Source: Intestinimonas butyriciproducens (GTDB taxonomy: Bacteria > Bacillota > Clostridia > Oscillospirales > Oscillospiraceae). From it: a stretch of DNA of 64,000 nucleotides. The stretch spans positions 2,852,001 through 2,916,000 of the forward strand of contig NZ_CP011524.1 in assembly GCF_004154955.1 (NCBI RefSeq), in the 5' to 3' direction. Shown here one piece after another: positions 1,506 through 47,503 of the stretch; the first letter of the stretch is position 1; each line of letters begins with the position of its first letter. The position numbers and the translations under genes are program-made. The notes beneath the pieces are model-generated. The model did no database searches, was not told the origin of the DNA, and saw nothing but the letters and a program-made list of their open reading frames with translations.

Positions 1506-1526
1506 ATGATAGTCCCCCTCCATATG

Positions 1527-3586: not shown

Positions 3587-3623
3587 AAGATTTCCTCATA
3601 AATGGTTGTCCATTCTTTTAGTG

Positions 3624-4775: not shown

Positions 4776-4786
4776 TCTATATAACC

Positions 4787-5671: not shown

Positions 5672-5759
5672 AATTTAAATATCCTCCACCTAATGATAGC
5701 TTTCAGTTTTAGACTCCTTAAAACCCGTAGGTCCGCAATATCTTCAAATTATATAACAA

Positions 5760-8409: not shown

Positions 8410-8416
8410 ACGCTTC

Positions 8417-11378: not shown

Positions 11379-11385
11379 ATTCTTC

Positions 11386-12363: not shown

Positions 12364-12376
12364 TTTCTCATCTCCT

Positions 12377-13489: not shown

Positions 13490-14574
13490 AAGCCCTCCTC
13501 CTGCATCGCTGCGAGGACCCTGCGCACCACGTTGGCGCGGTTAAAACACGCCTCCATATGTACCCGACCGGCCCGGCCCATCTCCTCCCTCCGGATAGGG
13601 GGCAGCTCCACGAAGCGGCGCATGGCATGATAAAGCGCCTGGGCGTCGCCGGGCGGGCAGAGGAACCCGTTCTCCCCGTCGCACACCGCCTCCCGGCAGC
13701 CCGGAATATCCGAGGTGATGAGGGCACGCCCACTGGACGCCGCCTCCAGCAGTACGTTGGACATTCCCTCATGGTAGGAGGGGAGCACCACGCAGCTCGC
13801 CTCCTCATAAAATGGGCGGACATCCTCCTGAAAGCCGTGAAAATCCACCACGCCTTCCCGGACCAGCCCCTCCACCGCCTCCCGGTATGCATCCTCAAAA
13901 AACCCCACCATATCGAACCCGATCTCCGCGCCGAAGACCTCCTTTAGGCGCTGGGCAGCCCAAAACAGCTCTTCCACACCCTTTTCCCTCATGATACGGC
14001 CCACAAAGAGGAAGCGGACCCGCCCGTTTTCCCTGTAGGGACGCAGGGGGTACTCCGCCAGACTGACGCCCGCCCCAGGGAGCACACACGCCTTCTTCTG
14101 CGGGATAATATGCCTTTGAAAAAACAGCGCCGCATTGTCGCTGTTTTCAAAAAATACCCGTCTCGCGCCGCTCAATGCCGTCCGGTACAAAACTGTGACC
14201 AGCCGGGCCAGGCCGGGGCGCTGGAACGCCGTGCCCAGCCCCTGGACATTGGCGCAATAGGGGACTCTCATCATCCGGCATGCCAGACCGCCGTAAATAT
14301 TGGGCTTGATGGAATAGGTCAGCACCAGATCCGGCCGCTCCGCACGGAGCAGCTGCCGATAGGCGCGCAGCAGCTTGAGATCCGTGGCGGGGTTGACGCC
14401 TCTGCGGTCTACCGGCGTCTCCAGGCATCGGCAACCCATGTGTTCAAAATCTTCCTCATGCCCCACAAAAGGGGTGCTGATGACCACTTCATTTTCTTCC
14501 AGAAGGGTGGAAATGAGCTCCTTCCGGAACCTCCAGAGCATATAGGAGTGGTTTGTGAGCACCAGTATCTTCAT
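13486..14574 (-). CDS. Glycosyltransferase family 4
   Basis: A 362-residue GT-B enzyme beginning MKILVLTNHSYMLWRFRKEL. The pattern of YMLWRFRKEL, TYSIKPNIYGG and NVQGLGTAF resembles the N-acetylgalactosaminyl/epsD-like subgroup that acts second, just after priming. The donor site E-x7-E is EGMSNVLLEAASSGRA beginning near residue 269, followed by TSDIPGCREAV. The ATG at 14574 overlaps the sugar-transferase stop (ATGA) and is preceded by AGGAAGGAAA. Being the second gene of the operon fits a role in adding the second sugar, though this is inference. Confidence 0.92.
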   Translation of the reverse strand: MKILVLTNHSYMLWRFRKELISTLLEENEVVISTPFVGHEEDFEHMGCRCLETPVDRRGVNPATDLKLLRAYRQLLRAERPDLVLTYSIKPNIYGGLACRMMRVPYCANVQGLGTAFQRPGLARLVTVLYRTALSGARRVFFENSDNAALFFQRHIIPQKKACVLPGAGVSLAEYPLRPYRENGRVRFLFVGRIMREKGVEELFWAAQRLKEVFGAEIGFDMVGFFEDAYREAVEGLVREGVVDFHGFQEDVRPFYEEASCVVLPSYHEGMSNVLLEAASSGRALITSDIPGCREAVCDGENGFLCPPGDAQALYHAMRRFVELPPIRREEMGRAGRVHMEACFNRANVVRRVLAAMQEEGL

Positions 14575-15254
14575 CTCGTTTCCTTCCTGTCCCGGCGCTC
14601 CATGGCGCCCGTGCCGCCCTCCACCACGCCGCTCTGCCGGAACACGGCCAGGAAGGTGCCGAAAAAGCACTTGAGGTCGATGGCCGGTCCCAAGTGCTCC
14701 AGATAATAGCGGTCCAGGGCGGCCTTCTCCTGAATTTCCAGCTCATCCCGGCCGTGGATCTGCGCCCAGCCGGTCAGCCCGGGGCGGAGCTGATGGAGAC
14801 CGCAGCGGTCCCGCTCCCGGATCAGGTCGGTTTGATTGTACAGGCTGGGCCGGTAGGACACGATGTGAAGGGACCCGGTCAGGATATTCAGGAGCTGCGG
14901 CAGCTCATCCAGTGAGGTTTTCCGCAGGACCTTTCCCACCCTGGTGATGTACTGCTCCGGATGCTCCAGCAGATGGGTAGGCTTGTCATGGGGGGTATCG
15001 CTCTTCATGGTGCGGAATTTGAGGATGTGGAAGGGACGCTTTCCACGCCCCACCCGCCTCTGGGTGAACAGAACGGGAAAGCCGTCGTCCAGCACAATGG
15101 CGATCCCAATGGCCAGCAGCACCGGAGAGAGCAGGACCAGCCCCAGCAGTGAGAGCGCCACGTCGGCGGCCCGTTTGACACCGATATAAAACCGCTGCGC
15201 TCCCGTCAGCATATGGGGCGCCTGAGCCCTCTCCTGAACGGCGGCGTTTTCCAT
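14571..15254 (-). CDS. Undecaprenyl-phosphate sugar-1-phosphate transferase (priming)
   Basis: A 227-residue bacterial sugar transferase (PF02397) that starts glycan assembly by placing a sugar-1-phosphate on undecaprenyl phosphate. It has one membrane segment near residues 31-57, then LFTQRRVGRGKRPFHILKF, KTSLDELPQLLNIL at 112-125 with the catalytic DE, and RPGLTGWAQIHGRDELEI at 157-173. The usual MSLVGPRP motif is instead LHIVSYRPSLYNQ at 129-141, an unusual change. GGGAGG lies nine bases before the ATG at 15254, so that start replaces the longer frame to 15287. It is the first gene of the minus-strand cluster, 66 bases downstream of a good promoter -10. Confidence 0.92.
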   Translation of the reverse strand: MENAAVQERAQAPHMLTGAQRFYIGVKRAADVALSLLGLVLLSPVLLAIGIAIVLDDGFPVLFTQRRVGRGKRPFHILKFRTMKSDTPHDKPTHLLEHPEQYITRVGKVLRKTSLDELPQLLNILTGSLHIVSYRPSLYNQTDLIRERDRCGLHQLRPGLTGWAQIHGRDELEIQEKAALDRYYLEHLGPAIDLKCFFGTFLAVFRQSGVVEGGTGAMERRDRKETR

Positions 15255-15319
15255 TGGAATTCCTCCCCGGCCGCAACTGCGCGGCATTCATTTTCCGCCC
15301 TGCCATTGGTAATAGTAAT

Positions 15320-16536: not shown

Positions 16537-17607
16537 TTATTCCGAAGTTCCGCTCTCCCCGGACGCCGGGGTATAGTGGAATGTGATCTTCACCGCAGGT
16601 CCCTCTTCGCCCTGCCGCAGGTAGAGCGTGGAGGTTTTCTCCACCTCATTGGCGTCGATATCCGCCGTTTCCGCGCCATTGACGTAGACCATCAGGCTGT
16701 CCAGACGATGGGCCTCCGAGAGGGCATCGCTGCTCTTGGCCTGGAACCAAGTCTCTCCGTCCCGGCTGTATGTAAGCGTCTCCACCCGGACCAGGCCGCC
16801 CAGCTGGAGCTGTACACCCATCCATTTCCCGGCCTCGCGGGGCTGGCCGGGGCCGTCGGCATCCGCTTCCTGCCCGGTCAGGGCCTCCAGGCCGGAGAGC
16901 GCCACGGTATAGCCCTCCTCTGACGCCGTCACAGTCTCCACCCGGAACTTTCCGTCGTTCACCTGCCGGGCCGCACCCTCTGCCAGCACCCCTTCGGCGT
17001 CTCTGGTCCGGACGATCAGCCCGGTGATCAGGCCCTCCTCCTCCACGGCCGCAGTGAGGCTCTGGACCATCTCGGCATAGGTCACGGTGCTCGCAGGGCG
17101 GAACAGCCCCTGCGAGCCCTGCATGACACCGGCCTGGGTCACTGCGGACACAGCCCCTTCCGCCCAGCCGGCGATCTCCGCCGCGTCGGTATAGTCCGTC
17201 TGTCCGCCCGCGGAGAGGTGGAAGGCCCGGTCCAGCATCACCGCAGTCTCCTGACGGGTCACGGCCGCGTCGGGCAGAAGCTGTCCGGTCCCGTTCCCCT
17301 GCAATACTCCGGCGTCTACCAGGCGCAGCAGCGCGCCGGAATGGGCGTCCTCCGCCCTGATGTCGGTAAAACGGTTCTCCGCCTCCTGGGTGTAGGTCAT
17401 CACCCGGTCGATGGCGGCGGCCACCTCCCCCCGGGTCATCACATGCTCCGGGGACATGCTCTGATCCAGCTTGCCGCAGTCCTCCCAGCGCTTTGCCGCC
17501 TGTGACGCCCAGGCCGGAAAGTCCTCCGAGGCCGCCGAGGCCGGAAAGGTCAGCATACCGATGCAGAGTGCGGCCGCCGTACAGGCCGCGATCCTCTTAT
17601 GTCTCAT
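16537..17607 (-). CDS. Exported SLH-domain protein
   Basis: A 356-residue secreted protein. MRHKRIAACTAAALCIG and the PASA-A cleavage site near residue 25 form a signal peptide. Three divergent S-layer homology repeats follow (about 28-215): FPAWASQAAKRWEDCGKL, FTDIRAEDAHSGALLRLVDA with VTRQETAVMLDRA, and DAAEIAGWAEGAVSAVTQAG with VTYAEMVQSL. They should anchor it to wall polymer. The C-terminal 140 residues (VRVETLTYSRDGETWFQAKS) look like a small beta-sandwich of unknown role. GGAGG nine bases before the ATG at 17607 fixes the start; the longer frame to 17673 lacks a ribosome site. It may be cotranscribed with lplA. It is unrelated in its C-terminus to the two large SLH genes. Confidence 0.88.
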   Translation of the reverse strand: MRHKRIAACTAAALCIGMLTFPASAASEDFPAWASQAAKRWEDCGKLDQSMSPEHVMTRGEVAAAIDRVMTYTQEAENRFTDIRAEDAHSGALLRLVDAGVLQGNGTGQLLPDAAVTRQETAVMLDRAFHLSAGGQTDYTDAAEIAGWAEGAVSAVTQAGVMQGSQGLFRPASTVTYAEMVQSLTAAVEEEGLITGLIVRTRDAEGVLAEGAARQVNDGKFRVETVTASEEGYTVALSGLEALTGQEADADGPGQPREAGKWMGVQLQLGGLVRVETLTYSRDGETWFQAKSSDALSEAHRLDSLMVYVNGAETADIDANEVEKTSTLYLRQGEEGPAVKITFHYTPASGESGTSE

Positions 17608-17671
17608 CTGTTTTCGCCTCCAAGAATCGAAATCATGCAGCAGCGGCGCGCATGGCGCGCTGTGTGGAGTC

Positions 17672-17680
17672 ATTATAGCA
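17672..17680 (-). promoter_or_regulatory. Candidate extended -10 promoter of the SLH gene
   Basis: The minus strand reads TGCTATAAT, a perfect TATAAT (17677-17672) with an extended TG one base before. The -35 region is AT-rich but has no good TTGACA. It lies between the integrase stop and the SLH start, giving a leader of about 58 bases. Confidence 0.55.
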
Positions 17681-17715: not shown

Positions 17716-18855
17716 TCAAGCGCCCCGGATACTTCTGGCCACCGCGCTGACCGCCTCGACATGGGTCTGGTCGAAAATATGGGTATAGACCCTGCCCGTC
17801 ACCACCACATCCTTGTGCCCCAGCGCACGACTGATATCCGGCAGCGGGATGTGGGCGCTGTTGGCCACACTGGCAAAGGTGTGGCGCAGGCCGTGGAGAG
17901 TAATGGGGGGTAGCCCGTTGACCTCCACAAACGCCTCCATGGCCCGGGTGACCTGATTGGGGTTCCAGGGCCGTCCCCGCCGGTCTGCGAGTACAAAACC
18001 GGTGTCCTCGGCCAGACCGGCGCACACCGCCGCGCGCTGCTCCTCCCGGGTACGGCGGAGCAGACGCTCCAGGTCCTCCAGCCCCGCAAAGCCCAGGCTC
18101 CGGAGAGAGTTGGGCGTTTTGGGAGGCTTTTCCACCACGGTCCCGCCGGCGGTGGTGCGGGCCAGACGGACGGAGAGCACCTTCTTCCGAAAATCGATGT
18201 TCTCCCAGCGCAGGCCGCAGATCTCCCCCCGGCGAAGGCCCAGATACCCGGCCAGCTTGACGATGAGCTCCATCCGCCCGCCCTCCGCGGCCTGGAAGAG
18301 CAGCTTGAGCTCCTGCGGCGTATAGTAGAGCTGGCGGGCCGCCCGCGCTCTGGGGGGCTCCACCCGGTCCACAGGGTTACTGCCGAGGATCTCCTGGCGA
18401 AACGCCAGCTTTAGCGCCGTGTGCAGCAGGATATGGTGCTTATGCACGGTGTTCGGGCTCAGCCCCTTGCCCTTGATCATCTGCGTATAATACTGCTGGA
18501 TGCGCAGCGGCGTGAGCTCCCGCAGCAGGACCCGGCCCAGACTTGGCTTGAGGTGGTTCCGGATGATGTTGGCATAGCAGTAGTAGGTGGTGTATTCCAA
18601 GTTGGGCCGTACGATCTCCTCCAGCCAGTAGTCCAGCCACGCCCCAACGGTGATGGCCTCGGCCGCCGGGAGCCCCCCCTCCCTGCGCTCCGCCGCAAAG
18701 GTTTCGACCGCCTGGACCGCCTCCCGCTCGCTGCGGAAGGTCCTTGTCCATCGCTCCCGCCGCCCGTTCTTTCCGCGCCCTCCGTCAAAGTAGGCGTAGT
18801 AGAGCTTCTTTTCCGTGTCATAGGCCACATTCTTTCCTATCCGTTTTCTAGACAT
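17716..18855 (-). CDS. Tyrosine recombinase (phage-integrase family)
   Basis: A 379-residue site-specific recombinase of the Tn916-Int/phage integrase type. Residues 1-55 resemble an arm-binding domain, 66-165 a SAM-like core-binding domain, and 175-379 the catalytic domain. The catalytic set is complete: R208 in LGLRRGEICGL, a beta-hairpin Lys near 246, H321-x-x-R324 in HGLRH, H347 in LGHKDVV, and nucleophile Y357 in GRVYTHI. AGGAGG five bases before the ATG supports the start. No excisionase, relaxase or phage gene is near, so it is not part of a recognisable element. It lies head-to-head with the left SLH gene, 128 bases from the inverted repeat, so a role in inversion of the 19-30 kb segment is possible but unproven. 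Confidence 0.93.
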   Translation of the reverse strand: MSRKRIGKNVAYDTEKKLYYAYFDGGRGKNGRRERWTRTFRSEREAVQAVETFAAERREGGLPAAEAITVGAWLDYWLEEIVRPNLEYTTYYCYANIIRNHLKPSLGRVLLRELTPLRIQQYYTQMIKGKGLSPNTVHKHHILLHTALKLAFRQEILGSNPVDRVEPPRARAARQLYYTPQELKLLFQAAEGGRMELIVKLAGYLGLRRGEICGLRWENIDFRKKVLSVRLARTTAGGTVVEKPPKTPNSLRSLGFAGLEDLERLLRRTREEQRAAVCAGLAEDTGFVLADRRGRPWNPNQVTRAMEAFVEVNGLPPITLHGLRHTFASVANSAHIPLPDISRALGHKDVVVTGRVYTHIFDQTHVEAVSAVARSIRGA

Positions 18856-18983
18856 CGTATCCTCCTATCGGTCTGTGTCAGGGACGTTCCGGCGTCCGTC
18901 CCACAGATATCCACGGTTACCAGATGGCTACCCGCCTCCTCGCAAAGGCTTGTGCGGAGCGGCCTTTCCCCCGTATGCGGCAA

Positions 18984-19690
18984 GATGTCTCCTCCTCCCG
19001 GGAAAATAATGAAGGAGGAATTCCACATGAGAAACCTCAAGCGGGCTCTTAGCCTGGCAATGGCTTCCATCATGGTCCTGGGCATGATGGTCGTCGGCGC
19101 CGGCGCTGTGAGCTACGACGACTTTTCCGACAAGGACAAGATCGTCAACGACGAGGCCGTCTCCATGCTCGTTGAGCTGAATGTCATCAACGGCAAGGAC
19201 GACGGCAGCTTTGATCCCGAGGGGATCGTGACCCGTGCCGAGATGGCCAAGATGATCTGCGTCGTCCTCAACGGCGGCAAGGATCCCAGCCTGGGCAACG
19301 TGTCCAACTACACCTACACCGACACGGTGGGCCACTGGGCTGCTGCGTACATTGAGTACTGCACCACCCTGGGCATCGTGGCCGGCGACGGCACCGGCAA
19401 GTTCAACCCCTCCAACACCGTGACCGGTGCTGAGGCGGCCAAGATGCTGCTGGTGGCTCTGGGCTTCAAGTCCGAGATCGAAGGCTTCACCGGCGCGAAC
19501 TGGGCCGTGAACGTCAACGTGCGCGCCAACCAGAAGGGCCTGTTCGACGAGCTGAGCATCAACCCCTCCGAGGGTCTGTCCCGCGACAACGCCGCTCAGA
19601 TGGTGTGGAACGCCCTGGATGCCGGCGTGGTCTCCTATGACTACACCCTGATCACCGACGGCTCCTCCATCACCTCCAGCCCCACCCTCA
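18984..19690 (+). repeat. Left arm of a 707-bp inverted repeat (SLH-coding)
   Basis: This stretch matches the complement of 29531-30237 base for base without gaps; I count five mismatches (about 99.3% identity), with an unbroken identical run of 417 bases at 19162-19578. It covers 43 bases of leader with the ribosome site, the signal peptide and the SLH domains, and stops abruptly at codon 222. The flanks beyond both ends differ. Arms in inverted orientation 9.8 kb apart would let recombination flip the segment between them. Confidence 0.95.
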
Positions 19691-21723
19691 AGGACGACAA
19701 GGACGACAAGACCCTGTTGGAGGACAAGTTCAAGGTCGCCAAGCTGGAGGGCGTGATCATCTCCAACGAGTACGCCACCTCCACCAGCACCGCTCCTGAA
19801 AAAGAGGGCAACACCATCCTGCTGCTGACCTCTGACGACGCCACCAGCGGCAAGGACGAGGGCGCTAAGATCACCCTGAAGACCACCACCGCCGCCAACC
19901 TGCTGGGCAAGTCCGTCACTATGTTTGCCAAGGACTGGAAGAACGGGTCCTATGACACCGTGCTGGGCAATCCTGTCCTCTCCTCCGACAACCTGATCGC
20001 CACCATCACCGAGGATTCCGACTCCGACGACGTGAACGACGCCCTGAAGGCCGCCGGCATCAAGACGGTGAAGGACGCCGTCCTGGTGGAAAACTATGTC
20101 CGCAACAGCGATAAGGTCGACGGCAAGGACGTGGACCGCACCGTCTCCGGCATGGAGGCTGTGTCCAAGCTGACCGGCAACGGCATTGAGGTCACCGTCA
20201 TCAGCAACGATGACGACAACGAGGCCGATTTCGTCATCGTGACCAAGATGATCGCCGGCAAGGTCTCCGCCTATAACGCCAACGGCAACGACGGCGACGG
20301 CTATATTACCGTCACCCCGTTCACCAACCTTGATGACAGCGATGATCGAATCTCTGGCGAGGAGTTTGACGACGTGGTGGGCGTCAAGGACGTGGCGAAG
20401 GACGACATCGTGCTCTACTACCGCGTGGACGACACCTATTATATTGAGAAGGCCGAATCCGTCAGCGTGACCGTTACCTCCACCAAGGGCGGCGACACCA
20501 TTAAGGACGGCTCCGACACCTATGAGCAGTCCGCCCTGTCCTGGAAGTTCGACGACGACAGCAGCATCAAGAAGAACGCGAACCTGACCGACGTGGTGGA
20601 GATCGATGACGAGGTCACCCTGTATCTGGACAACTTCGGCTACGTCATCTATACGGACGGCTCCGAGAGCAGTGACGACTACATGTTCATCACCGGTGCG
20701 GATGCCAGCGTAAAGACGAATTTCGAGACCCTGACCATCAAAGCCGTGCTGAACGACGGCACCGAGGTCACCGCCTCCGTCAACAAGATCGACGGCAAGA
20801 AGCTCTCCACCTATGTGGAAAATGCCAAGGAAGATGCCAAGGAAGATGCCAAGGAAGATGCCAAGAAAGATGCCAAGAAGGAGAATAAAGACTACAGCGA
20901 TCTCGACCTTGAGAAGGAAGTGCTCCATCAGATCGCAACCTATACCAAGAGCGGTTCCAGCTACAACATTAAGCTGAAGAAGACCGTTGCGATTGAGCAG
21001 GTGAAGAAGGGCAACGCCAAGCTGTCCGGTAACTACTCCGCCAACAGCAAGACCATCTTTGTAATCGGCGACCACAACGACAACTACAAGGCATACACCG
21101 GCATCTCCAACGTGCCCGACGTGGACAGCGTTGGAACCAATGGTGTGAAGGTCGCCTATGTCAAGGACAAGGAAACGGTGGCCAAGTTCGTGGCTGTGAC
21201 CAAGGCCAAGACCTCCGATGGTGATACCGAGGGCATCTATATCCTGGGCAAGACCCCCTCTGCCAAGAAGAACAGCAGCGACGACACCATCTATGTGACC
21301 CAGGCCTATGTGAACGGCAAATATGTGGCCGAGTTGGAGTTGGAGGGCTACGACAAGGTCGACGGCGAGGTGTCGCGCGGCTACTACGGCGGTGTGACCA
21401 CCAGCGGCAGCAATGTGGTGGACTGGCACGATCTTCTGAACGCGAAGAAGAACGGAGCCGATTACAGCAAGGACGATTGGTATGATTTCGGCAGCTACGT
21501 GACCGACTGCGGCGACGGCATCATCTCCAGTCAGAACCATAAGACCGCTCTGACCTACGACAAAGACACCGTGGTGATCGTTGTGGACGGCACCAAGGAG
21601 ATGGCCCCCGGCGACATCGACGAGGTCATCTGCGTGGACGGCGCACCCTCTGACAGCGATGTGGTGGTTATCGTGCCTGACGACGATGATGAACACGCTG
21701 ACTACGTGTTCATCATCCGCTGA
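19027..21723 (+). CDS. S-layer-like SLH protein, left copy (probably without own promoter)
   Basis: An 898-residue secreted protein. Residues 1-27 are a signal peptide ending AGA. Three SLH repeats span about 28-200 (VTRAEMAKMICVVL, TVTGAEAAKMLLVALG, SRDNAAQMVWNAL), anchoring it to the wall. The remaining 680 residues are Asp-, Thr- and Val-rich with beta-strand character and end HADYVFIIR. AAGGAGGAA precedes the ATG. Its first 222 residues are almost identical to the protein at 27648-30194 (differences E43D and S/T near 185); after that the two are roughly half identical. A 12-base tandem repeat near 20824 encodes a KEDA stretch missing from the other copy. I see no sigma-A promoter in the 170 bases upstream, so this may be a silent cassette. 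Metal or glycan binding is unknown. Confidence 0.9.
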   Translation: MRNLKRALSLAMASIMVLGMMVVGAGAVSYDDFSDKDKIVNDEAVSMLVELNVINGKDDGSFDPEGIVTRAEMAKMICVVLNGGKDPSLGNVSNYTYTDTVGHWAAAYIEYCTTLGIVAGDGTGKFNPSNTVTGAEAAKMLLVALGFKSEIEGFTGANWAVNVNVRANQKGLFDELSINPSEGLSRDNAAQMVWNALDAGVVSYDYTLITDGSSITSSPTLKDDKDDKTLLEDKFKVAKLEGVIISNEYATSTSTAPEKEGNTILLLTSDDATSGKDEGAKITLKTTTAANLLGKSVTMFAKDWKNGSYDTVLGNPVLSSDNLIATITEDSDSDDVNDALKAAGIKTVKDAVLVENYVRNSDKVDGKDVDRTVSGMEAVSKLTGNGIEVTVISNDDDNEADFVIVTKMIAGKVSAYNANGNDGDGYITVTPFTNLDDSDDRISGEEFDDVVGVKDVAKDDIVLYYRVDDTYYIEKAESVSVTVTSTKGGDTIKDGSDTYEQSALSWKFDDDSSIKKNANLTDVVEIDDEVTLYLDNFGYVIYTDGSESSDDYMFITGADASVKTNFETLTIKAVLNDGTEVTASVNKIDGKKLSTYVENAKEDAKEDAKEDAKKDAKKENKDYSDLDLEKEVLHQIATYTKSGSSYNIKLKKTVAIEQVKKGNAKLSGNYSANSKTIFVIGDHNDNYKAYTGISNVPDVDSVGTNGVKVAYVKDKETVAKFVAVTKAKTSDGDTEGIYILGKTPSAKKNSSDDTIYVTQAYVNGKYVAELELEGYDKVDGEVSRGYYGGVTTSGSNVVDWHDLLNAKKNGADYSKDDWYDFGSYVTDCGDGIISSQNHKTALTYDKDTVVIVVDGTKEMAPGDIDEVICVDGAPSDSDVVVIVPDDDDEHADYVFIIR
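20824..20883 (+). repeat. Tandem 12-bp repeat in the left SLH gene
   Basis: Five units of GCCAAGGAAGAT: three are exact, and the last two differ by one and a few bases. They encode AKEDAKEDAKEDAKKDAKKE, a charged linker within the surface-exposed part. The other SLH copy lacks it. In-frame units mean changes in copy number would alter length without breaking the gene. Confidence 0.9.
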
Positions 21724-21757
21724 GTACCTGTAGCCCCTGATTAAAAACGTTTGTTTT

Positions 21758-21796
21758 CCGCTCCCCATCCAAAGAATTGGATGGGGAGCGGTTTTG
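21758..21796 (+). terminator. Intrinsic terminator of the left SLH gene
   Basis: A perfect 15-bp stem, CCGCTCCCCATCCAA (21758-21772) with TTGGATGGGGAGCGG (21777-21791), and a four-base loop, followed by TTTTGT. It starts 34 bases after the stop. Its stem core CCCCATCCA is shared with the terminator of the right copy at 27578-27607. Confidence 0.92.
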
Positions 21797-21931
21797 TAGT
21801 TGGGCACAAAATATTTACTTAGTGTAGAATTATTTAGTGAACAAAATATGAATATAAAATGAAATTTTTTTGTATTTTAAAAAGGTCCTCTTCTCTGCGT
21901 TCCCACAATCGCGGGAAGCTGTGTACTTTCA

Positions 21932-21960
21932 TTGACATAACGGGCCATTCGGGATAAAAT
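21932..21960 (+). promoter_or_regulatory. Sigma-A promoter of the internal glycan genes
   Basis: TTGACA (21932-21937, full consensus) and TAAAAT (21955-21960) lie 17 bases apart, with an AT-rich run upstream (21805-21885) that could act as an UP element. It is 34 bases before the ATG at 21994 and lies inside the invertible segment, so it would move with its genes. Confidence 0.82.
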
Positions 21961-21993
21961 ACTGTAGAATACAGGTGAATGTGGGAGAAAGCC

Positions 21994-23376
<1,383 letters not shown>

Positions 23377-23394
23377 TACAAGGAGCGTAGAACC

Positions 23395-25953
23395 ATGTCA
23401 AAAAAACAGACCAAGGCGTCCCGGAAGAGACCGGATGTTTCCCCTGCGGCGCCGGGTACGGAAGCCGCCGCCCCCGACGGTGGGGAGGCCCGGACCGCAC
23501 CGGTCAGGCCGTCCCCCGCGCCCGGGCGCCCTCCCGCAGACCCTGAGCCGCCTCTCCGTATCGGCTGGAGCGCCCCTTTGCGCTATGCCATTCTGGGGGT
23601 GTTGCTCTTTCTGGTGATCGCCCTCCAGGCCGGAGGGAACGACCGGGCCGCCGCGGTGGGGATGTCTCTGGTCCTCATTGCCTGCGTCTTCGGCAGAATG
23701 CCCCAATGGAGCCTGCGCCACCGTCTTTCGATCCCTGTGCTGGCGGTGTTCGCCTACCTCCTCCTCAACAGCGCGGCCGGGCTCTATTCCCGGTTCGGCA
23801 GCTTTGCCGCCGGGGAGTTCGGTAAGATCCTCTGCGCCTTCTGTGTGTTCTGTGTGGTGCTGCTCCGGGCACGCCGGGGCGAGGCGCGGTATCTGGCCGC
23901 CATGGCCTCCGCCGTCAGCGCCGTCTTCGGCCTCATCAGCATCGACGGCTCCTCTCTCAAGCTGCTCTCCTCCGCCTTTATCCGGGTGATGGACGGGGCC
24001 CTGGGATGCTATTATGCCAGCCTCAGCACGGGCTACGAGTCCGGTATCCGCGTCACCGGCATCTTCGGCAACGCCAATGTTCTGGCCGGCTTCCTGGCGC
24101 TGGGCGTTTTTCTCGCCCTCTATCTGGTCCGCACGGCGGGCTCCCGCCGGGCCCGTCTGGGCGGCTGTATGCTCCTTTTCGTCAACTCCCTCAGCTTCCT
24201 GCTGGCCTTCAGCATGGGCGCCATCGGCATGTTTGCGGTCGCGGTGCTCTTCTATCTTCTGGCTGAACGGAAGGGGCTCCGCTTCTCGCTCTTCCTCCTG
24301 ATGGTGGAGACAGCCGCCGTGGCCCTCCTGATGGCCTTTCTCTCCTTTGCCGGTCTGGGAAAGACCGGAGCCATGGCGGCGCTGCCGGTCTGCGCGGCGC
24401 TGCTGGGCGGCGTGCTCCTGTGGGCGCTCCACGAATTCGTGGGCCTGCCCCTCTCCCAGCGTCTCTCCGCCCATGGCCGGACCGCCGGTCTGGTGGTGGC
24501 CGGGCTGGCCGGGCTGCTGTGTGTCTACGCGGTGCTGGCCTTCAACGTCACCGGGGGCTACGCCCTCTCCCCCGGAGAGACCCTCCGCCGCTCGGTGTAT
24601 CCCGCCCCCGGGGACTACACGCTGGAGGGCGACTGGAGCGGCGGGGTCCAGCTCACAGTGGAGAGCCAGAACAAGACCGAAACCATCATGCACACCAGCA
24701 CGGTCCTCTACAGAGGGCCGCTGGACGGCGCGGCTTTCACCGTGCCGGAGGATTCCACCGTGGTCTACCTCGATCTCTCCGCCCAGGACGGTGCGGCGCT
24801 GGAGCGGCTGTCCCTCTCGGGCGGCCCCTCCGTCAAGCTGGGCTATCGCCTGCTGCCCGGCTTTGCCGCCAACCGCCTCCAGGGCCTGTGGGCCAATCAG
24901 AACGCCATCCAGCGCACGGAGTTCTTCCGGGACGGCCTGCGCATCTATGCCCAGAGCCCCGTCATCGGAAACGGGCTCGGCAGTGTGGAGGGGTTGGTCA
25001 CCAGCGTACAGAGCTTTTACTATGAGAGCAAATACGTCCACAACCACTATATCCAGGTCCTGGCCGAGATGGGCATTCCGGGCCTGCTGGCTTTTCTGGC
25101 CATTCTGGGCTCCGCCGCCGTCACCCTCTGGAAGCGGCGGCGGGAGGGGGAGGAAGACGCACTGCTTCCGGCGCTCTGTGCCTGCCTGGCCATGGCGGCG
25201 CTCCATGCCGCCGCGGAGGCGGTGTGGTCCCTGGGACAGTATCAGACCATGGCCCTGCTGGTCCTGTCCATGATCGCCGTCTGCTTCGGCCGCCCTGTGA
25301 CCAGACTGACCTCCAAAACCGCCGCGCTGGCCTCTTCGGCCCTCTTGTGTCTCTTTTCCGCCGTGTTCGCCTGGCTGCTCTACGGAAATCTCGCTGCGGA
25401 GCGGGCTTACGCCGAGATCCAGGCCGGCACCCGGATTCAGGACGCCTACAGCATGACCAATCTGGCCCGCCGCGACCGCTACGGCTGGGCCCAATACAAG
25501 CTGGATATGGCCGTCAACGCCGCCAGCTCTCCCGTGGAGGAATTCGCCCAGACCGCTGCAAGCTATGCCCAGGACTGCCGCAAGCTGCGGGTCCACTCCA
25601 TCAACTTCAGCCTGGAACGGTACGTCTATCTGCCCCAGGGGCGGTATGAGGAGCTCTTCACCGCCTCCCGGGAGGGCATCCCTCAAAAAGCCTCCGTGTC
25701 CAGGACATGGCAGGAGGAATTCTCCCTCTATGAAGAGGCCCTTCGCAGCGACCCCGAGGGGGTCCTGGACGACATCCAGTGGTTCGCCGATCAGGTCCTC
25801 CAGACCGAGCAGATGATGCACGACTACAATGCCGACAGGATGGAGCCTGTCACCCTGACCGGTGACAATCTGGCTTTCCTGGAGCGTATCCAAGCGGTGA
25901 AGGCTACCGGGGCTACCGGGGCCGACGCCGCGGCGCTGCTGGGCCTGACATAA
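23395..25953 (+). CDS. O-antigen ligase / polymerase-like membrane protein
   Basis: An 852-residue polytopic protein. The first 55 residues are charged and Pro/Ala-rich (cytoplasmic). About ten helices follow from residue 60, interrupted near residues 390-490 by a soluble extracellular domain (GDYTLEGDWSGGVQLTVESQ). The O-antigen ligase (PF04932) signature is YVHNHYIQVLAEMGIPGLLA near 543-562, with the catalytic-type H-N-H. After further helices a 190-residue soluble tail (to LLGLT) follows. Such proteins join or polymerise lipid-linked glycans onto a carrier outside the membrane; in Gram-positives they can attach glycan to proteins or wall. With SLH genes on both sides, S-layer glycosylation is a reasonable guess. 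AAGGAGCGTAGAACC precedes the ATG. Confidence 0.88.
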   Translation: MSKKQTKASRKRPDVSPAAPGTEAAAPDGGEARTAPVRPSPAPGRPPADPEPPLRIGWSAPLRYAILGVLLFLVIALQAGGNDRAAAVGMSLVLIACVFGRMPQWSLRHRLSIPVLAVFAYLLLNSAAGLYSRFGSFAAGEFGKILCAFCVFCVVLLRARRGEARYLAAMASAVSAVFGLISIDGSSLKLLSSAFIRVMDGALGCYYASLSTGYESGIRVTGIFGNANVLAGFLALGVFLALYLVRTAGSRRARLGGCMLLFVNSLSFLLAFSMGAIGMFAVAVLFYLLAERKGLRFSLFLLMVETAAVALLMAFLSFAGLGKTGAMAALPVCAALLGGVLLWALHEFVGLPLSQRLSAHGRTAGLVVAGLAGLLCVYAVLAFNVTGGYALSPGETLRRSVYPAPGDYTLEGDWSGGVQLTVESQNKTETIMHTSTVLYRGPLDGAAFTVPEDSTVVYLDLSAQDGAALERLSLSGGPSVKLGYRLLPGFAANRLQGLWANQNAIQRTEFFRDGLRIYAQSPVIGNGLGSVEGLVTSVQSFYYESKYVHNHYIQVLAEMGIPGLLAFLAILGSAAVTLWKRRREGEEDALLPALCACLAMAALHAAAEAVWSLGQYQTMALLVLSMIAVCFGRPVTRLTSKTAALASSALLCLFSAVFAWLLYGNLAAERAYAEIQAGTRIQDAYSMTNLARRDRYGWAQYKLDMAVNAASSPVEEFAQTAASYAQDCRKLRVHSINFSLERYVYLPQGRYEELFTASREGIPQKASVSRTWQEEFSLYEEALRSDPEGVLDDIQWFADQVLQTEQMMHDYNADRMEPVTLTGDNLAFLERIQAVKATGATGADAAALLGLT

Positions 25954-25969
25954 CGGAAATTCGGAATAT

Positions 25970-26014
25970 CGCTGCTTTCCCGCACGTTTTTACCGGGAAA
26001 GCAGCGGTATTTTC
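25970..26014 (+). terminator. Intrinsic terminator after the ligase gene
   Basis: Stem CGCTGCTTTCCCG (25970-25982) with CGGGAAAGCAGCG (25994-26006), an 11-base loop, then GTATTTTC. It separates the two-gene unit from the following glycosyltransferase. Confidence 0.8.
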
Positions 26015-26033
26015 GGTCGAATGAAGCGCAGAC

Positions 26034-26078
26034 GCAGGCCCTGTTTGGTCATATTTCCTATGACCAAACAGGGCCTGC
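26034..26078. repeat. Perfect 20-bp palindrome upstream of a promoter
   Basis: GCAGGCCCTGTTTGGTCATA (26034-26053) is followed, after five bases, by its exact complement (26059-26078). The right arm ends five bases before the -35 of the next promoter, and neither strand has a T-tract after it. It could be a protein-binding operator, a small mobile remnant or an RNA stem; nothing in the sequence decides. Confidence 0.85.
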
Positions 26079-26082
26079 GCTC

Positions 26083-26111
26083 TTGCATCTGAAAAAAAGA
26101 TATACTATAAT
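26083..26111 (+). promoter_or_regulatory. Promoter of the internal glycosyltransferase gene
   Basis: TTGCAT (26083-26088) and a perfect TATAAT (26106-26111) are 17 bases apart. The leader of about 83 bases to the ATG at 26201 shows no obvious structure. The palindrome at 26034-26078 directly abuts the -35 side. Confidence 0.7.
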
Positions 26112-26200
26112 CAAATAACTTGAAAAGTGGGGTTACTTCTTTTATCGGAGGCTGGGCACAGCTTCCCTTATTTGAAACAAAGCCGTCAGGAGGTGCACCC

Positions 26201-27343
26201 ATGCCCGGCAAGCTGCTCTATACCGCCTCTACATACTCCCATATCGCCAATTTTCACCTGCCCTATCTGCGCGCCTTCCGGGAGGCGGGATGGACCGTGC
26301 ATGTGGCCTGCGGCGGAACGGCCATGGCGCTTCCCGAAGCCGACCGCGTGGTGGACGTCCCCTTTGCAAAGCGGATGACCGCGCCGGAAAACCTGGGGTG
26401 CGCCCGCCGCCTGGGGGAATTGATGAAGTGTGAGGCCTATGATCTGGTCATCACCCATACCTCCCTGGCGGCCTTTTTCACCCGGCTGCCCCTTCTGGGG
26501 CGGAAGGACCGCCCCCGCGTCATCAATACGGTCCACGGCTATCTCTTCGACGACGACACGACCGCCCCCAAGCGGCAAATCCTTCTGGCCGCCGAACGGC
26601 TCACCGCCCCCTGCACAGATCTGGTGCTGGTCATGAACCGCGCCGACGAGGCGCTGGCCCGGCGCTACCGCTTGGGCGGCGAGATTGGCTTTATCCCGGG
26701 CATGGGGGTCCCCTATGGGCGGCTGGACGCGGTCAGCGAGACGGATGGGCGGACATACCGCCGGGAACTTGGTATCCCCGACACCGCCTTTTTGATGGTC
26801 TACGCCGCGGAATTCTCCCGGCGGAAGCATCAGGCTTTTCTCATCCAGGCCCTCCGCGGCCTGCCGGAGCGGGCCATGCTCCTGCTCCCTGGAGAGGGTG
26901 CGGAGCGCGGGGCCTGCCAGGCTCTGGCGGAGGAGCTGGGGTTGGCGGAGCGGGTGCGCTTTCCCGGTCAGCTCGGGGATCCCTCCCTCTGTTACCGGGC
27001 GGCGGACTGCGCCGTGTCCTCCAGCCGCAGCGAGGGGCTTCCCTTCAATATCATGGAGGCCATGCACGCCGGTCTGCCGGTGGTGGCCAGCGATGTAAAA
27101 GGCCACCGGGATCTGTTGGGTGACGGCTGCGGTCTTTTATATCCCTACGACGACCGTGCCGCTTTCCAGAAGGCGGTCACGCTCCTGATGGATTCCCCCG
27201 GCGAGGCCATGCGCCTGGGCCTCGCCGCCGCCGGAGCCGCGGAACGCCTCCGCCTGGAGGCGGTACTGCCTCAGGTGCTGGAGGCCTACGGCCTCATCGT
27301 CCCCGCCGGGACACAGGAGCCCAGCGGCTCCGTCCGCACGTAG
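26201..27343 (+). CDS. Glycosyltransferase family 4 (EpsD-like)
   Basis: A 380-residue GT-B enzyme. The N-terminus reads KLLYTASTYSHIANFHLPYL, then NTVHGYLFDDDT and PGMGVPYGRLDAV, the pattern of EpsD/CapM-type transferases. The donor site E-x7-E is SRSEGLPFNIMEAMHAGLPV, followed by ASDVKGHRDLL. AGGAGG seven bases before the ATG at 26201 selects this start over the open frame from 26120. It has its own promoter and terminator inside the segment flanked by the SLH inverted repeat, and it probably acts with the glycosylphosphotransferase at 21994. Sugar specificity is unknown. Confidence 0.92.
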   Translation: MPGKLLYTASTYSHIANFHLPYLRAFREAGWTVHVACGGTAMALPEADRVVDVPFAKRMTAPENLGCARRLGELMKCEAYDLVITHTSLAAFFTRLPLLGRKDRPRVINTVHGYLFDDDTTAPKRQILLAAERLTAPCTDLVLVMNRADEALARRYRLGGEIGFIPGMGVPYGRLDAVSETDGRTYRRELGIPDTAFLMVYAAEFSRRKHQAFLIQALRGLPERAMLLLPGEGAERGACQALAEELGLAERVRFPGQLGDPSLCYRAADCAVSSSRSEGLPFNIMEAMHAGLPVVASDVKGHRDLLGDGCGLLYPYDDRAAFQKAVTLLMDSPGEAMRLGLAAAGAAERLRLEAVLPQVLEAYGLIVPAGTQEPSGSVRT

Positions 27344-27359
27344 CCGGGCAAAAGAATAC

Positions 27360-27396
27360 AGAGAGGTCAGCGCAAGTCGGCCTCTCTCTTTTTTTT
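27360..27396 (+). terminator. Intrinsic terminator of the glycosyltransferase gene
   Basis: Stem AGAGAGG (27360-27366) with CCTCTCT (27381-27387), then C and eight T bases (27389-27396). It begins 17 bases after the stop. Confidence 0.85.
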
Positions 27397-27416
27397 GCCG
27401 CTCTTCCAGGTATAAA

Positions 27417-27553
27417 GCTTCCTGTGCCCGGGACACACTAGGATGGCGGGTGAAACGGACGTCACCGGAAGCTTTTGCGCATATGGGCAGTCCCAGCCCA
27501 TGCGCTTGTGATCCCATGGCCGTACTCGCCGCAGGCGGTACGATGGCCTTTTT
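27417..27553 (+). ncRNA. Unassigned structured non-coding region (possible RNA)
   Basis: Between two convergent terminators the plus strand can fold as a three-way junction: outer stem GCTTCC (27417-27422) with GGAAGC (27467-27472), inner TGTG/CACA (27423-27426, 27434-27437) and GGTGA/TCACC (27449-27453, 27462-27466). A second hairpin follows (27477-27505, GCGCA and TGGGC arms), then CGTAC-CGCC with GGCG-GTACG (about 27524-27546) and TTTTT. The last two parts look like a terminator. TATAAA at 27411 is the only -10-like element. It matches no RNA family I recognise, and it may be chance in GC-rich DNA. Confidence 0.3.
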
Positions 27554-27571
27554 GCTGTGTCTTCGCACAGC

Positions 27572-27607
27572 AAAAAACGTCCCCCATCCAGTACTGGATG
27601 GGGGACG
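27572..27607 (-). terminator. Intrinsic terminator of the right SLH gene
   Basis: CGTCCCCCATCCAG and CTGGATGGGGGACG (27578-27607) pair around TA, followed on the minus strand by TTTTTT (27577-27572). A further hairpin GCTGTG/CACAGC (27554-27571) lies beyond it. The stem core is shared with the left SLH gene terminator. Confidence 0.9.
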
Positions 27608-27647
27608 AAAAACACTTGTTTTTTAGTGATTGCGGTGTGTCTGATCC

Positions 27648-30194
27648 TTAGCGGATGATGAACACATAGTCGGCGTGACCCTCGTCACTGCCGGTACCCT
27701 CGACCAGGACCACCTTGGAGCTGGCGTTGGTGTCGCCCTTGACATAGACGATCTCATCGATGTCGCCGCCCTCAATGTGCTTGGTGCCGTCCACGATGAT
27801 GACGGTGGTGTCCTTATCGTAGGTCAGAGCACCCTTGCCGTTGTTGATGATGCCGTCGCCGAAATCGGTCACGGCGCTACCGGCGTCAACCTTCTTGGGA
27901 TCAAGCTTACTAAAGTCAACGGTGTTGCCGCCGCTGGTGCTCACATCCTTGTAGTAGCCGCGGGTGATGGTCTCGCCCTTGGTGTAGCCGTCCAGCTCCA
28001 GCTCAGCCACGTACTCGTCGTTCACATAGGCCTCAACCACATAGATGGTGTCGTCGCCGTCCTTCTTAGCGGAAGCGGTCTTGCCCAGGATGTAGATGCC
28101 GTTGGTATCGCCGTCGGAGGTGGTGGCACTCAGAGCAACCACGAACTTGGCAACGCCGGACTTGGCATAGCAGTACAGCTTCGCATCCTTGTTAGTCACA
28201 TTGGGCACGTTGGAGATGCCGGTGTAGACCTTGTAGTTGTCGTTCTTGTCGCCGATCACGAAGATGGTCTTGCTGTTGGCGGTAGCGCCGCCCAGGTTGG
28301 CCTTATTCTTCTGAATCTGAGTGATTTTGGTATCGTCCTTCACAGTGATATTGTACTTCTCACCGGTCTTGGTGTAGGTCACGATCTTGTTGTTGACCAT
28401 GGCCTCGGCAGCAGACTCAGTCTTGCCGTCGAAAGCAGAGGAGAGCTTCTTGCTGTCGAGCTTGTTGACGGAAGCGGTGACCTCGGTGCCGTCGGAGAGC
28501 ACGCCCTTGATGGTCAGGCTCTCAAAGCCGGGCTTCACGGAGGCGTCGGAACCGGTGATGAACATATACTCATCAGCGGCGGTCACGGCGTCGGTGTACA
28601 CCACGTAGCCGAAGTTGTCCAGATACAGGGTGACCTCGTCGTCAGGCTCTACAGCAGTGGTCAGCACGGTGTTGTTGTCATCGTCGTACTTGCTGGACAG
28701 AGCGGAGGCCTTATAGGTGTTCTTTCCGTCCTTGATGGTGTCACTGCCCTTGGTGGAGGTGACGGTCACGTTGACGGAGTCGGCCTTCTCAGCATAGAAG
28801 GTGTCGCCCACGCGGTAGTAGAGCACGATGTCGTCCTTCGCCAGGTCCTCAGAGCCCTTCACGTCAGCGAACTCAGCGCCGGCGATCTGGTCGGCCTTGG
28901 CAATATCGGTCAGCGCAGAAACGGTGATGTAGCCGTCGCCGTCGTTGCCCTTGGCGTTGTAGGCGGAGACCTTGCCGGCGATCATCTTGGTCACGATGAC
29001 GAAATCGGCCTTGTTGTCGTTGTCGTTGCTGATGACGGTGACCTCAATGCCGTTGCCGGTCAGCTTGGCCACGTCGGCCATGCCGGAGATGGTGAGCTCC
29101 TTGTCGTCCTTGTCAGTGGCGCGGATGAAGTTCTGCACCAGAACGGCCTTGCTCACTTCCTTGATGCCGGCGTCCTTCAGGGCGTCCTTCACGTCGTCGG
29201 CGTCGGAGGACTCGCTGATGGTGGCGATCATGTTGTCAGAGGAGACAACGGGGTTGCCCAGCACGGTCTGATAAGCGCCGTTCTTCCAGTCCTTGGCGAA
29301 CATGGTGACGGACTTGCCCAGCAGGTTGGCGGCGGTGGCAGTCTTCAGGGTGATGGTATCGCCCTCGTCCTGCTTGCTGTCGGCATCGTCGGAGGTCAGC
29401 AGGAGAACAGTGACATCCTCCTTCTCCACGGCGGTGCCGGTAGAGGTGGCATTCTCGTTGGCAACGATCACACCCTCCAGCTTGGCGACCTTAAACTTGT
29501 CGGTCAGCAGGGTCTTGCTCTCGTTGTCGATGAGGGTGGGGCTGGAGGTGATGGAGGAGCCGTCGGTGATCAGGGTGTAGTCATAGGAGACCACGCCGGC
29601 ATCCAGGGCGTTCCACACCATCTGAGCGGCGTTGTCGCGGGTCAGACCCTCGGAGGGGTTGATGCTCAGCTCGTCGAACAGGCCCTTCTGGTTGGCGCGC
29701 ACGTTGACGTTCACGGCCCAGTTCGCGCCGGTGAAGCCTTCGATCTCGGACTTGAAGCCCAGAGCCACCAGCAGCATCTTGGCCGCCTCAGCACCGGTCA
29801 CGGTGTTGGAGGGGTTGAACTTGCCGGTGCCGTCGCCGGCCACGATGCCCAGGGTGGTGCAGTACTCAATGTACGCAGCAGCCCAGTGGCCCACCGTGTC
29901 GGTGTAGGTGTAGTTGGACACGTTGCCCAGGCTGGGATCCTTGCCGCCGTTGAGGACGACGCAGATCATCTTGGCCATCTCGGCACGGGTCACGATCCCC
30001 TCGGGATCAAAGCTGCCGTCGTCCTTGCCGTTGATGACATTCAGCTCAACGAGCATGGAAACGGCGTCGTCGTTGACGATCTTGTCCTTATCGGAAAAGT
30101 CGTCGTAGCTCACAGCGCCGGCGCCGACAACCATCATGCCCAGGACCATGATGGAAGCCATTGCCAGGCTAAGAGCCCGCTTGAGGTTTCTCAT
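27648..30194 (-). CDS. S-layer-like SLH protein, right copy (promoter-linked)
   Basis: An 848-residue secreted protein with the same plan as 19027-21723: signal peptide (1-27), three SLH repeats to about residue 200, then a long Asp/Thr/Val-rich beta-type region ending GHADYVFIIR. The first 222 residues are nearly identical to the left copy, the rest only roughly half, with scattered strongly conserved blocks such as GNGIEVTVISND, TLYLDNFGYV and ANSKTIFVIGD. AAGGAGGAA precedes the ATG at 30194. Unlike the left copy it has a strong promoter 66-94 bases upstream, so it is probably the expressed major surface protein in this orientation. The abundant Asp could bind calcium (inference). Confidence 0.92.
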   Translation of the reverse strand: MRNLKRALSLAMASIMVLGMMVVGAGAVSYDDFSDKDKIVNDDAVSMLVELNVINGKDDGSFDPEGIVTRAEMAKMICVVLNGGKDPSLGNVSNYTYTDTVGHWAAAYIEYCTTLGIVAGDGTGKFNPSNTVTGAEAAKMLLVALGFKSEIEGFTGANWAVNVNVRANQKGLFDELSINPSEGLTRDNAAQMVWNALDAGVVSYDYTLITDGSSITSSPTLIDNESKTLLTDKFKVAKLEGVIVANENATSTGTAVEKEDVTVLLLTSDDADSKQDEGDTITLKTATAANLLGKSVTMFAKDWKNGAYQTVLGNPVVSSDNMIATISESSDADDVKDALKDAGIKEVSKAVLVQNFIRATDKDDKELTISGMADVAKLTGNGIEVTVISNDNDNKADFVIVTKMIAGKVSAYNAKGNDGDGYITVSALTDIAKADQIAGAEFADVKGSEDLAKDDIVLYYRVGDTFYAEKADSVNVTVTSTKGSDTIKDGKNTYKASALSSKYDDDNNTVLTTAVEPDDEVTLYLDNFGYVVYTDAVTAADEYMFITGSDASVKPGFESLTIKGVLSDGTEVTASVNKLDSKKLSSAFDGKTESAAEAMVNNKIVTYTKTGEKYNITVKDDTKITQIQKNKANLGGATANSKTIFVIGDKNDNYKVYTGISNVPNVTNKDAKLYCYAKSGVAKFVVALSATTSDGDTNGIYILGKTASAKKDGDDTIYVVEAYVNDEYVAELELDGYTKGETITRGYYKDVSTSGGNTVDFSKLDPKKVDAGSAVTDFGDGIINNGKGALTYDKDTTVIIVDGTKHIEGGDIDEIVYVKGDTNASSKVVLVEGTGSDEGHADYVFIIR

Positions 30195-30237
30195 GTGGAA
30201 TTCCTCCTTCATTATTTTCCCGGGAGGAGGAGACATC
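29531..30237 (-). repeat. Right arm of the 707-bp inverted repeat
   Basis: Complementary to 18984-19690 with five mismatches by my count and no gaps. The outer end (30237) stops 23 bases short of the -10 at 30260-30265, so the promoter is unique to this side. A crossover within the arms would exchange the two SLH genes' downstream parts and leave this promoter in place. Confidence 0.95.
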
Positions 30238-30259
30238 CTCTTCCCTAGGGTACGACGAT

Positions 30260-30288
30260 ACTATACAATCCAAACGCCTTTCCGTCAA
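30260..30288 (-). promoter_or_regulatory. Strong sigma-A promoter of the right SLH gene
   Basis: On the minus strand TTGACG (30288-30283) and TATAGT (30265-30260) are 17 bases apart, each matching five of six consensus bases. Transcription would start near 30253, giving a leader of about 58 bases that holds the AAGGAGGAA site. No comparable element precedes the left copy. Confidence 0.85.
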
Positions 30289-30373: not shown

Positions 30374-30640
30374 TCAGCATGGCCCGCCCCTGCTGGGGCC
30401 CCTGACCAGCTCCGTCCACGCTCCGTCACACTGGCTGTACAGCCGCTCCCACACCAGATGCCGCCACAGCGCCTCCGGAGGGCGCGCCCCCTCCTTCATC
30501 GGGAAGCACACACAGGTGCCGCAGGAGGCCGACACCGCCCTCGGCACCGGCATGAGGCGGACGTCCAGACCGGCGCTTTTCAGCGTCCGATTCGCAAAAA
30601 TAGCGTCGAAATGGGAGGAAAACGTCATCAGATACAGCAT
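30374..30640 (-). CDS. DUF3343 small protein
   Basis: An 88-residue protein of the DUF3343 family (PF11823), described as a putative Se/S carrier-like domain. It reads LYLMTFSSHFDAIFANRTLK, then MPVPRAVSASCGTCVCFP, where the P-R-x-(I/V)-S-A-x-C-G motif and its cysteine are the family mark; two more Cys follow. The open frame extends upstream to 30784, but the family N-terminus begins at the ATG at 30640, with AGGAGG 12 bases before it, a long spacing. It follows the rplQ terminator and precedes the SLH promoter; no selenium-metabolism gene is nearby. Confidence 0.75.
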   Translation of the reverse strand: MLYLMTFSSHFDAIFANRTLKSAGLDVRLMPVPRAVSASCGTCVCFPMKEGARPPEALWRHLVWERLYSQCDGAWTELVRGPSRGGPC

Positions 30641-30777
30641 AATAAAATATGTCCTCCTCCCGCTCCGTGGGCGCTGTGTCAAACGCTGGTCAAGCGTGTC
30701 TTCAGGCGGCAGGACACGCCGCCTGCGTCTGGGCTTCGCCGCCGCTTCCCTCTCAAAAGTCCAATTCTTTTTCCTCT

Positions 30778-30835
30778 GAAACAAGGAAGAGCCTCTTGCG
30801 GACTCCCGGGCACCGGGGGGGCCGCAAGAGGCTCT
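30778..30835 (-). terminator. Terminator of the ribosomal protein cluster
   Basis: A perfect 14-bp stem, AGAGCCTCTTGCGG (30788-30801) with CCGCAAGAGGCTCT (30822-30835), then TCCTTGTTTC on the minus strand. It lies 20 bases after the rplQ stop and ends the long transcript begun near 47,503. Confidence 0.8.
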
Positions 30836-47235: not shown

Positions 47236-47503
47236 GGTTGTTCCTCCTTAAAACATACGAAGTGGTTTGTGACGTCTGCCGCTCCGTACGGTGAGAAATC
47301 TTTTATACACTCTTCCGTGCGTATCATTCCGAGGCATGAAGGAGGCCGGCACACATAACGTAGCCGGCCGTCGCACTCAAGTCCCGGCGATATACGCCGA
47401 GCGCATGATTTCTCAGCCGCCCGATCAACGGACATACTCCGCAGAAGTTACCTCATTTCTGAGCAATCTCCTGCATCATCGCAGACTGCGCCCAAACAGG
47501 CGC
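47236..47503 (-). promoter_or_regulatory. Long 5' leader of the S10 operon
   Basis: About 268 bases between the predicted transcription start and rpsJ. Near its 5' end GCGCCTGTTTGGGCGC can form a hairpin, and GGCCGGCTACGTTATGTGTGCCGGCC a second one near 47345-47370. No T-tract terminator is evident. Such leaders bind L4 in gamma-proteobacteria; the sequence here does not resemble that element to my eye, so a regulatory function is inferred only from length and structure. Confidence 0.5.

Follow-up and report, generated by a model that had tools for sequence, protein, structure and literature searches.

We examined a 64,000-nucleotide (nt) stretch of the Intestinimonas butyriciproducens genome (the window, positions 2852001-2916000 of contig C1 in genome G000, which is a single contig of 3.22 Mb), in which two large genes for proteins with S-layer homology (SLH) domains face each other, one behind a promoter-like site and one beside a tyrosine recombinase gene. 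The locus is probably a recombinase-operated S-layer cassette switch, in which the neighbouring tyrosine recombinase would invert DNA at short core sites. One expression site, made up of a promoter and a bare core in the leader, would drive a single SLH gene, and a second, promoterless SLH gene would lie inverted behind an equivalent core preceded by tandem CTACC-type repeats. The recombinase would bind these repeats and pair the promoter core with the repeat-marked silent core, and inversion of the DNA between the cores would bring the other S-layer body behind the fixed promoter. Because promoter and repeats lie outside the exchanged part, the product would have the layout of the substrate and the step would be reversible. 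The parts recur in other genomes of the family, where core, repeats, promoter and orientation covary; judged from these sequences, the locus is an instance of a system found more widely in the family. A sequence-only reading of the same DNA had proposed one promoter serving two bodies by inversion, and it missed the recombinase adjoining the silent copy, the core site in the leader and the tandem repeat at the silent end. This proposal has gained strong comparative support. The crossover within the 700-nt arms, in turn, need not be the main route, given the recombinase, core site and tandem repeats at the locus.

Inverted arms, core sites and tandem repeats

The left SLH gene (19027..21723, + strand; 898 amino acids, aa) and the right SLH gene (27648..30194, - strand; 848 aa) have the layout of SLH-anchored proteins, with SLH domains (PF00395) near the signal peptide and a long C-terminal body, and are putative S-layer (surface lattice) proteins. 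Their 5' portions form an inverted repeat of 718 nt (left arm 18984-19701, + strand; right arm 29520-30237, - strand) that is 99% complementary and ungapped, with a spacer of 9818 nt between the arms. Each arm takes in the leader, the ribosome-binding site, the signal peptide and two SLH domains. The nine mismatches are at 19092, 19131, 19155, 19161, 19579, 19691, 19692, 19696 and 19699, five of them within the first 707 nt, and the arm comparison found no likeness between the two copies 5' of 18984. The full arm occurs twice in the genome, the other DNA matches being only 70 and 35 nt long. Nonsynonymous (dN) and synonymous (dS) divergence between the genes is 0.010 and 0.019 in the arms and 0.24 and 0.51 in the bodies. 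The convergent genes across 9.8 kb, the 707-base ungapped repeat with about five mismatches and the nearly unchanged synonymous positions described in the sequence-only reading all hold; its estimate that the rest of the proteins is roughly half identical was too low, the bodies being 69% identical over 621 aligned residues. The two genes share the same C-terminal motif at their ends, and each is followed by a strong terminator-like hairpin with a T-rich tail (21758..21791, + strand, 15 pairs; 27578..27607, - strand, 13 pairs), which indicates complete paralogs and not fragments. The near-identity of the arms calls for a second process: homologous exchange or conversion between them would also keep the signal peptide and the SLH anchor alike. 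Genome G000 has 80 SLH-domain matches, so the two switch genes belong to a large SLH repertoire.

Promoters were called by consensus scans at the sequence level. As had been proposed, the right copy has a promoter-like site just outside its arm (TTGACG-17-TATAGT, 30260..30288, - strand), preceded by ATTACA at 30309 in an arrangement that recurs in relatives, and the scans found no promoter upstream of the left gene. From this we infer that the right gene alone is expressed and the left is silent.

The candidate core sites lie in the 5' leader, where the identity of the arms begins. At the silent copy the core (18984..18999, + strand) forms the left edge of the repeat, which opens with GATGTCTCC, 43 nt 5' of the start codon, and has no similarity beyond it. 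The core of the promoter side (30222..30246, - strand), read from the sequence, sits in an imperfect palindrome that pairs in the predicted fold, this fold being not more stable than those of shuffles. Leader folding was likewise no better than in shuffles (z 0.67 and -0.35), and no RNA element of Rfam matched at the locus. Among the genomes compared, many silent sites are AGGGGCGTTATACGCCCCT or near it and promoter sites are AGGGGAGTTATAC; a different core class, around TGTTCCC/TGTCTCC, occurs in the window and in the genomes whose recombinases are closest to that of the window. The 7-8 nt core varies between genomes, and yet for 32 of 35 silent sites in 14 genomes it is identical at the promoter and the silent site. 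None of 100000 shuffles of promoter cores between genomes gave so good a match, and one of 100000 did so within the core class. Genomes in which no promoter copy could be read are outside this count, as are the G312 copy on C5, the second of the promoter copies in G006, and the sites G312:C10:299236 and G006:C56:9938, which lack a core of this kind. Judged by eye, promoter sites have A immediately before the core and most silent sites have C or T, the silent sites of G393 having A. In G395 and G341 the core is common to both sites and the leader directly after it differs, which argues that the core is conserved for itself.

The second mark of the silent end is the tandem repeat GGTTACC-AGAT-GGCTACC (18915..18932, + strand), which is absent from the promoter end and may provide the arm-type binding sites of the recombinase. 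It is the sole match to this sequence in the genome with up to 3 mismatches allowed. Upstream regions were compared for 68 SLH copies with at least 200 nt of upstream sequence from 29 recombinase-bearing genomes. A promoter of the same type (TTGACG..TATnnT, with a TTACA motif before it) precedes 15 copies in 14 genomes, those of the window and of G360 having been read by eye after the pattern script missed them. The strict tandem repeat, a pattern written after the data were seen, occurs at 0 of the 15 promoter copies versus 49 of the 53 others, with 0.02 per set in dinucleotide shuffles. A looser pattern finds 52 of the 68 copies, including two that have a promoter, where shuffles give 5.1; in recombinase-free genomes it finds 1 of 23 copies. 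Among the copies examined, one promoter copy was seen in each of the single-contig genomes (G000, G087 and G275) and none in 15 of the 29 genomes; two of these 15 have one elsewhere, G005 and G009 (at a contig end). The same promoter type precedes the SLH gene of the single-copy, recombinase-free relatives G001, G002, G004 and G008.

Two genomes give a view of larger arrays. In G312 (a match to Flavonifractor sp. An10), a 467-kb contig carries about ten SLH cassettes marked by repeats, all on the same strand, and a single promoter copy on the opposite strand (loci L178-L179, L200, L202 and L253-L258). G343, which matches Flavonifractor plautii ATCC 29863 (L261-L265), has several repeat-marked sites, and three of the five that were fetched lie no more than about 500 nt from the end of a contig, which is where assemblies would stop if near-identical arms interrupt them.

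The recombinase and its distribution in the family

The proposed switch enzyme, a complete tyrosine recombinase (17716..18855, - strand; 379 aa), is encoded divergently from the left SLH gene. Among solved structures its sequence matches lambda Int (1z1b, E 1.4e-5) and the Int of 6emy (E 4.6e-10), which we take to be Tn1549 Int. Residues R208, K246, H321, R324, H347 and Y357, presumably the catalytic set of tyrosine recombinases, are invariant across 11 orthologs. The sequence thus has the features of a lambda-integrase type enzyme, with a predicted catalytic domain (PF00589, E 1.9e-21) carrying the conserved Arg, Lys, His-x-x-Arg, His and Tyr, and its SAM-like core-binding domain is matched by PF14659. 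The N-terminus was modelled as strands followed by a helix, which is compatible with an arm-binding domain, in a model that is poor as a whole (mean pLDDT 49.5). On the outer flank the recombinase is followed by a gene for a small SLH protein (16537..17673, - strand; 378 aa; PF00395 in two stretches), and a homolog of this protein, 44% identical, also follows the recombinase in G087.

The recombinase is present in 67 of 400 family genomes (E<=1e-60), as a single copy in 63 of the 67. Ten close orthologs have 56-62% identity (G087, G312, G060, G370, G127, G277, G239, G032, G190 and G395), and eight of these are divergent from an adjacent SLH copy that lacks a promoter; the G277 contig stops within the arm next to the recombinase. 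In G360, from the group of orthologs with 39-53% identity, the recombinase is flanked by a convergent pair that shows 100% identity over its first 700 nt. Homologs of the arm (E<=1e-60) were found in 38 genomes, and at least two copies are present in 18 of the 20 with the recombinase versus 6 of the 18 without it (Fisher p 5e-4; as only seven candidates were scored in each genome, the copy numbers are minimum values, and the genomes are not independent). Arms of uneven, mosaic identity occur in several genomes, and in G395 near-identical arms of about 1000 nt precede diverging bodies.

Cassette orientation and competing explanations

A switch driven from a single promoter would have inverted sites in a shared 5' region and one promoter copy among promoterless others. 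The first feature is found in the window and in relatives, and the second in the window and, among the copies examined, in G087 and G275. Of 28 pairs of a silent and a promoter copy on the same contig, 25 are inverted (p 2.7e-5); counted by genome, the figure is 10 of 10 with one tie left out (p 0.002). Ten of the 25 inverted pairs come from G312, one of them with only a degenerate SLH start; this genome also has one pattern match on the other strand (C10:283874). The 28 pairs include a second convergent pair on G006:C56, whose genes run into each other and which may be an assembly artefact. Loss of direct pairs by deletion would produce such an excess of inverted pairs.

The segment between the arms offers a further comparison. 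It contains genes for a WcaJ-type sugar-phosphate transferase (wcaJ; 21979..23376, + strand; TIGR03023, 462 bits), an O-antigen ligase-like Wzy_C protein (wzyC; 23395..25953, + strand; PF04932, 34.8 bits) and a family 4 glycosyltransferase (gt4; 26120..27343, + strand; PF00534, 2.3e-29). The order in the window is promoter, SLH, gt4, wzyC, wcaJ, SLH, recombinase and small SLH gene, with all three glycan genes pointing to the promoter. In G087 it is promoter, SLH, wcaJ, wzyC, one more frame, gt4, SLH, recombinase and small SLH gene, with wcaJ and wzyC pointing away from the promoter and gt4 towards it, and in G395 all three glycan genes point away. These two genomes belong to two genera other than that of the window, and the reversed direction suggests at least one turn of the inner segment with respect to its flanks. 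Matching of SLH bodies across the reversal between G000 and G087 was tried and gave no resolvable pairing. Since gt4 has moved besides and the bodies are unmatched across species, we take the reversal as support and not as proof. The match of a non-promoter copy in G393 to the promoter copy of G188 (62.5% over 667 aa) is a candidate silent/expressed pair, and only a lead.

Several observations weigh against a recombinase-operated switch. The repeat rule has exceptions in G006:C56:9938, G277:C289, G312:C10:299236 and G032b, and a second promoter copy is present in G006. G239 has lost the cassette next to its recombinase, and a different gene occupies the place, with an apparent remnant of the repeats. 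The orthologs of 39-53% identity are mostly away from cassettes, with an SLH match in the fetched stretch at 6 of 41 loci, and at E<=1e-60 the arm matches nothing in 47 of the 67 genomes that have the recombinase. Some of the counts use patterns written after the data were seen, and hand-entered lists. Support for inversion comes from comparison between genomes. Finally, G348 and G246 lack the recombinase and yet have mosaic arms of high identity, so arm identity alone does not need it. These two genomes hold several SLH copies each with uneven arms (L170-L172, L182 and L212 in G348; L176-L177 and L203-L204 in G246); they showed no close recombinase and no repeat-marked sites, and some of the copies have other promoters.

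The mosaic arms of G348 and G246, together with the length and near-identity of the inverted arms in the window, are what purely homologous (RecA-type) inversion would lead one to expect, with a crossover anywhere in the 700-nt arms and another role for the recombinase. The slp genes of Lactobacillus acidophilus and the sap genes of Campylobacter fetus also use long shared 5' regions. We nevertheless consider this explanation unlikely, for it accounts neither for a common core followed by differing leader in G395 and G341, nor for tandem repeats confined to silent copies, nor for a recombinase beside silent copies in several genera. Less probable still, and in our view a slim prospect, is that nothing switches: the genes would be two fixed paralogs, gene conversion would keep their 5' ends alike, and the left copy would be dead or differently regulated. 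Conversion alone would yield a low-dS arm beside a high-dS body, the bodies are closer within genomes (69, 51 and 66%) than between genomes (about 35% or less), and the flipped state is not among the sequences compared, which include one genome of the species. Fixed paralogs, however, would not explain why 25 of 28 pairs are inverted, why the inner segment is reversed in G087 and G395, why the silent frames are long and intact, or why G275 and G312 have one promoter and many promoterless copies. That the recombinase is a mere leftover integrase of a phage or integrative element inserted by chance is hardly credible: the enzyme family is that of integrases of phages and integrative and conjugative elements (ICEs), and 1555 of 50697 phage records match it, all below 60% identity, but the ten best-listed phage matches are 28.7-31.6% identical, and the gene is nearly always single-copy (63 of 67), is placed divergently next to SLH copies in several genera alike, and is accompanied by no other mobile-element gene among the 19 window frames scanned.

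Relation to known systems and neighbouring genes

Under the recombinase-operated switch, the closest parallel is to Vpma of Mycoplasma agalactiae and Vsp of M. bovis (recombinases Xer1/Mbr), in which, as portrayed in PMC2268961, silent genes are joined to one promoter by site-specific inversion. The shared traits in that account are a unique promoter, a site in the 5' untranslated region, a tyrosine-recombinase gene beside the locus, and a conserved signal-peptide region with diverging bodies. In Vsa of M. pulmonis (HvsR), the same source describes inversion that joins the promoter and a shared 5' coding part (714 nt) to different 3' ends; the joining of a shared 5' part to different 3' ends is alike, but there the shared coding part travels with the promoter and here each copy has its own. 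Unlike Vpma and Vsp, the present locus encodes SLH S-layer proteins in another lineage, has tandem repeats only at silent sites and 700-nt arms, and has relatives whose cassettes are sometimes far apart (G312). As the proteins are SLH proteins by Pfam and not mycoplasma lipoproteins, the locus would work like Vpma/Vsp or sap without being a member of either.

In the sap locus of C. fetus, S-layer genes have a 5' region in common, and an invertible segment carries their single promoter. The window would share these traits, its proteins differing in being SLH proteins, and we know of no dedicated recombinase with repeat-marked silent sites in sap. The sequence-only reading had compared the plan with slpA/slpB of L. 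acidophilus, opposite S-layer genes, one of them silent, that are interchanged by inversion according to a title cited in PMC4902306. The kind of inversion would indeed be the same, with two opposed S-layer genes of which one is proposed to be silent, but Vpma/Vsp is closer in its leader site, one promoter and neighbouring recombinase. The window differs from slpA/slpB in its SLH proteins, its neighbouring recombinase, its core with tandem repeats, its relatives with many cassettes and the glycan genes inside the segment.

The attachment (att) sites of lambda/Tn916-type integrases resemble the present ones in enzyme family and in a site pair with flanking direct repeats on one partner only. 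Here, by contrast, the one-sided repeats lie outside the exchanged part, and exchange would give back the original pair and not attL/attR. Because each exchange would regenerate the same pair, no directionality factor would be needed. We lean towards the view that a phage- or ICE-type integrase was domesticated in Oscillospiraceae as a reversible S-layer switch that pairs a bare promoter core with repeat-marked silent cores. On our best reading, the mechanism would be like that of Vpma and C. fetus sap apart from the repeats that mark the silent end. If the locus does act in this way, common gut commensals (Intestinimonas, Flavonifractor, Pseudoflavonifractor) would alter a major surface protein by programmed DNA rearrangement, like some mycoplasmas and C. 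fetus, with a bearing on phage escape, immune recognition and strain differences. Among the titles and abstract openings of the best-ranked matches in the open-access literature, we found no report of S-layer switching in Oscillospiraceae. PMC11892184 describes a short inverton in I. butyriciproducens that is not shown there to be the S-layer locus studied here, and the words S-layer and SLH are absent from its main text.

The glycan genes inside the segment had been regarded as a payload of the switch. This was not borne out and we rejected it, because they have their own promoter-like site (TTGACA-17-TAAAAT, 21932..21960, + strand) and lie between two terminators. Frames scanned at 345-15287 (- strand) include glycosyltransferases, an acyltransferase and a sugar transferase, so that a surface-glycan cluster probably adjoins the switch. 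On the other side, the promoter copy adjoins rplQ-rpoA both in the window and in G341, the name rplQ being inferred from position, and a small Se/S-carrier-like protein (PF11823) is encoded at 30374-30784 (- strand) between the expression site and the rpoA region. Farther away, at 47417-47487 (- strand), the window contains an S10-Clostridia ribosomal protein leader (RF03136, 36.3 bits).

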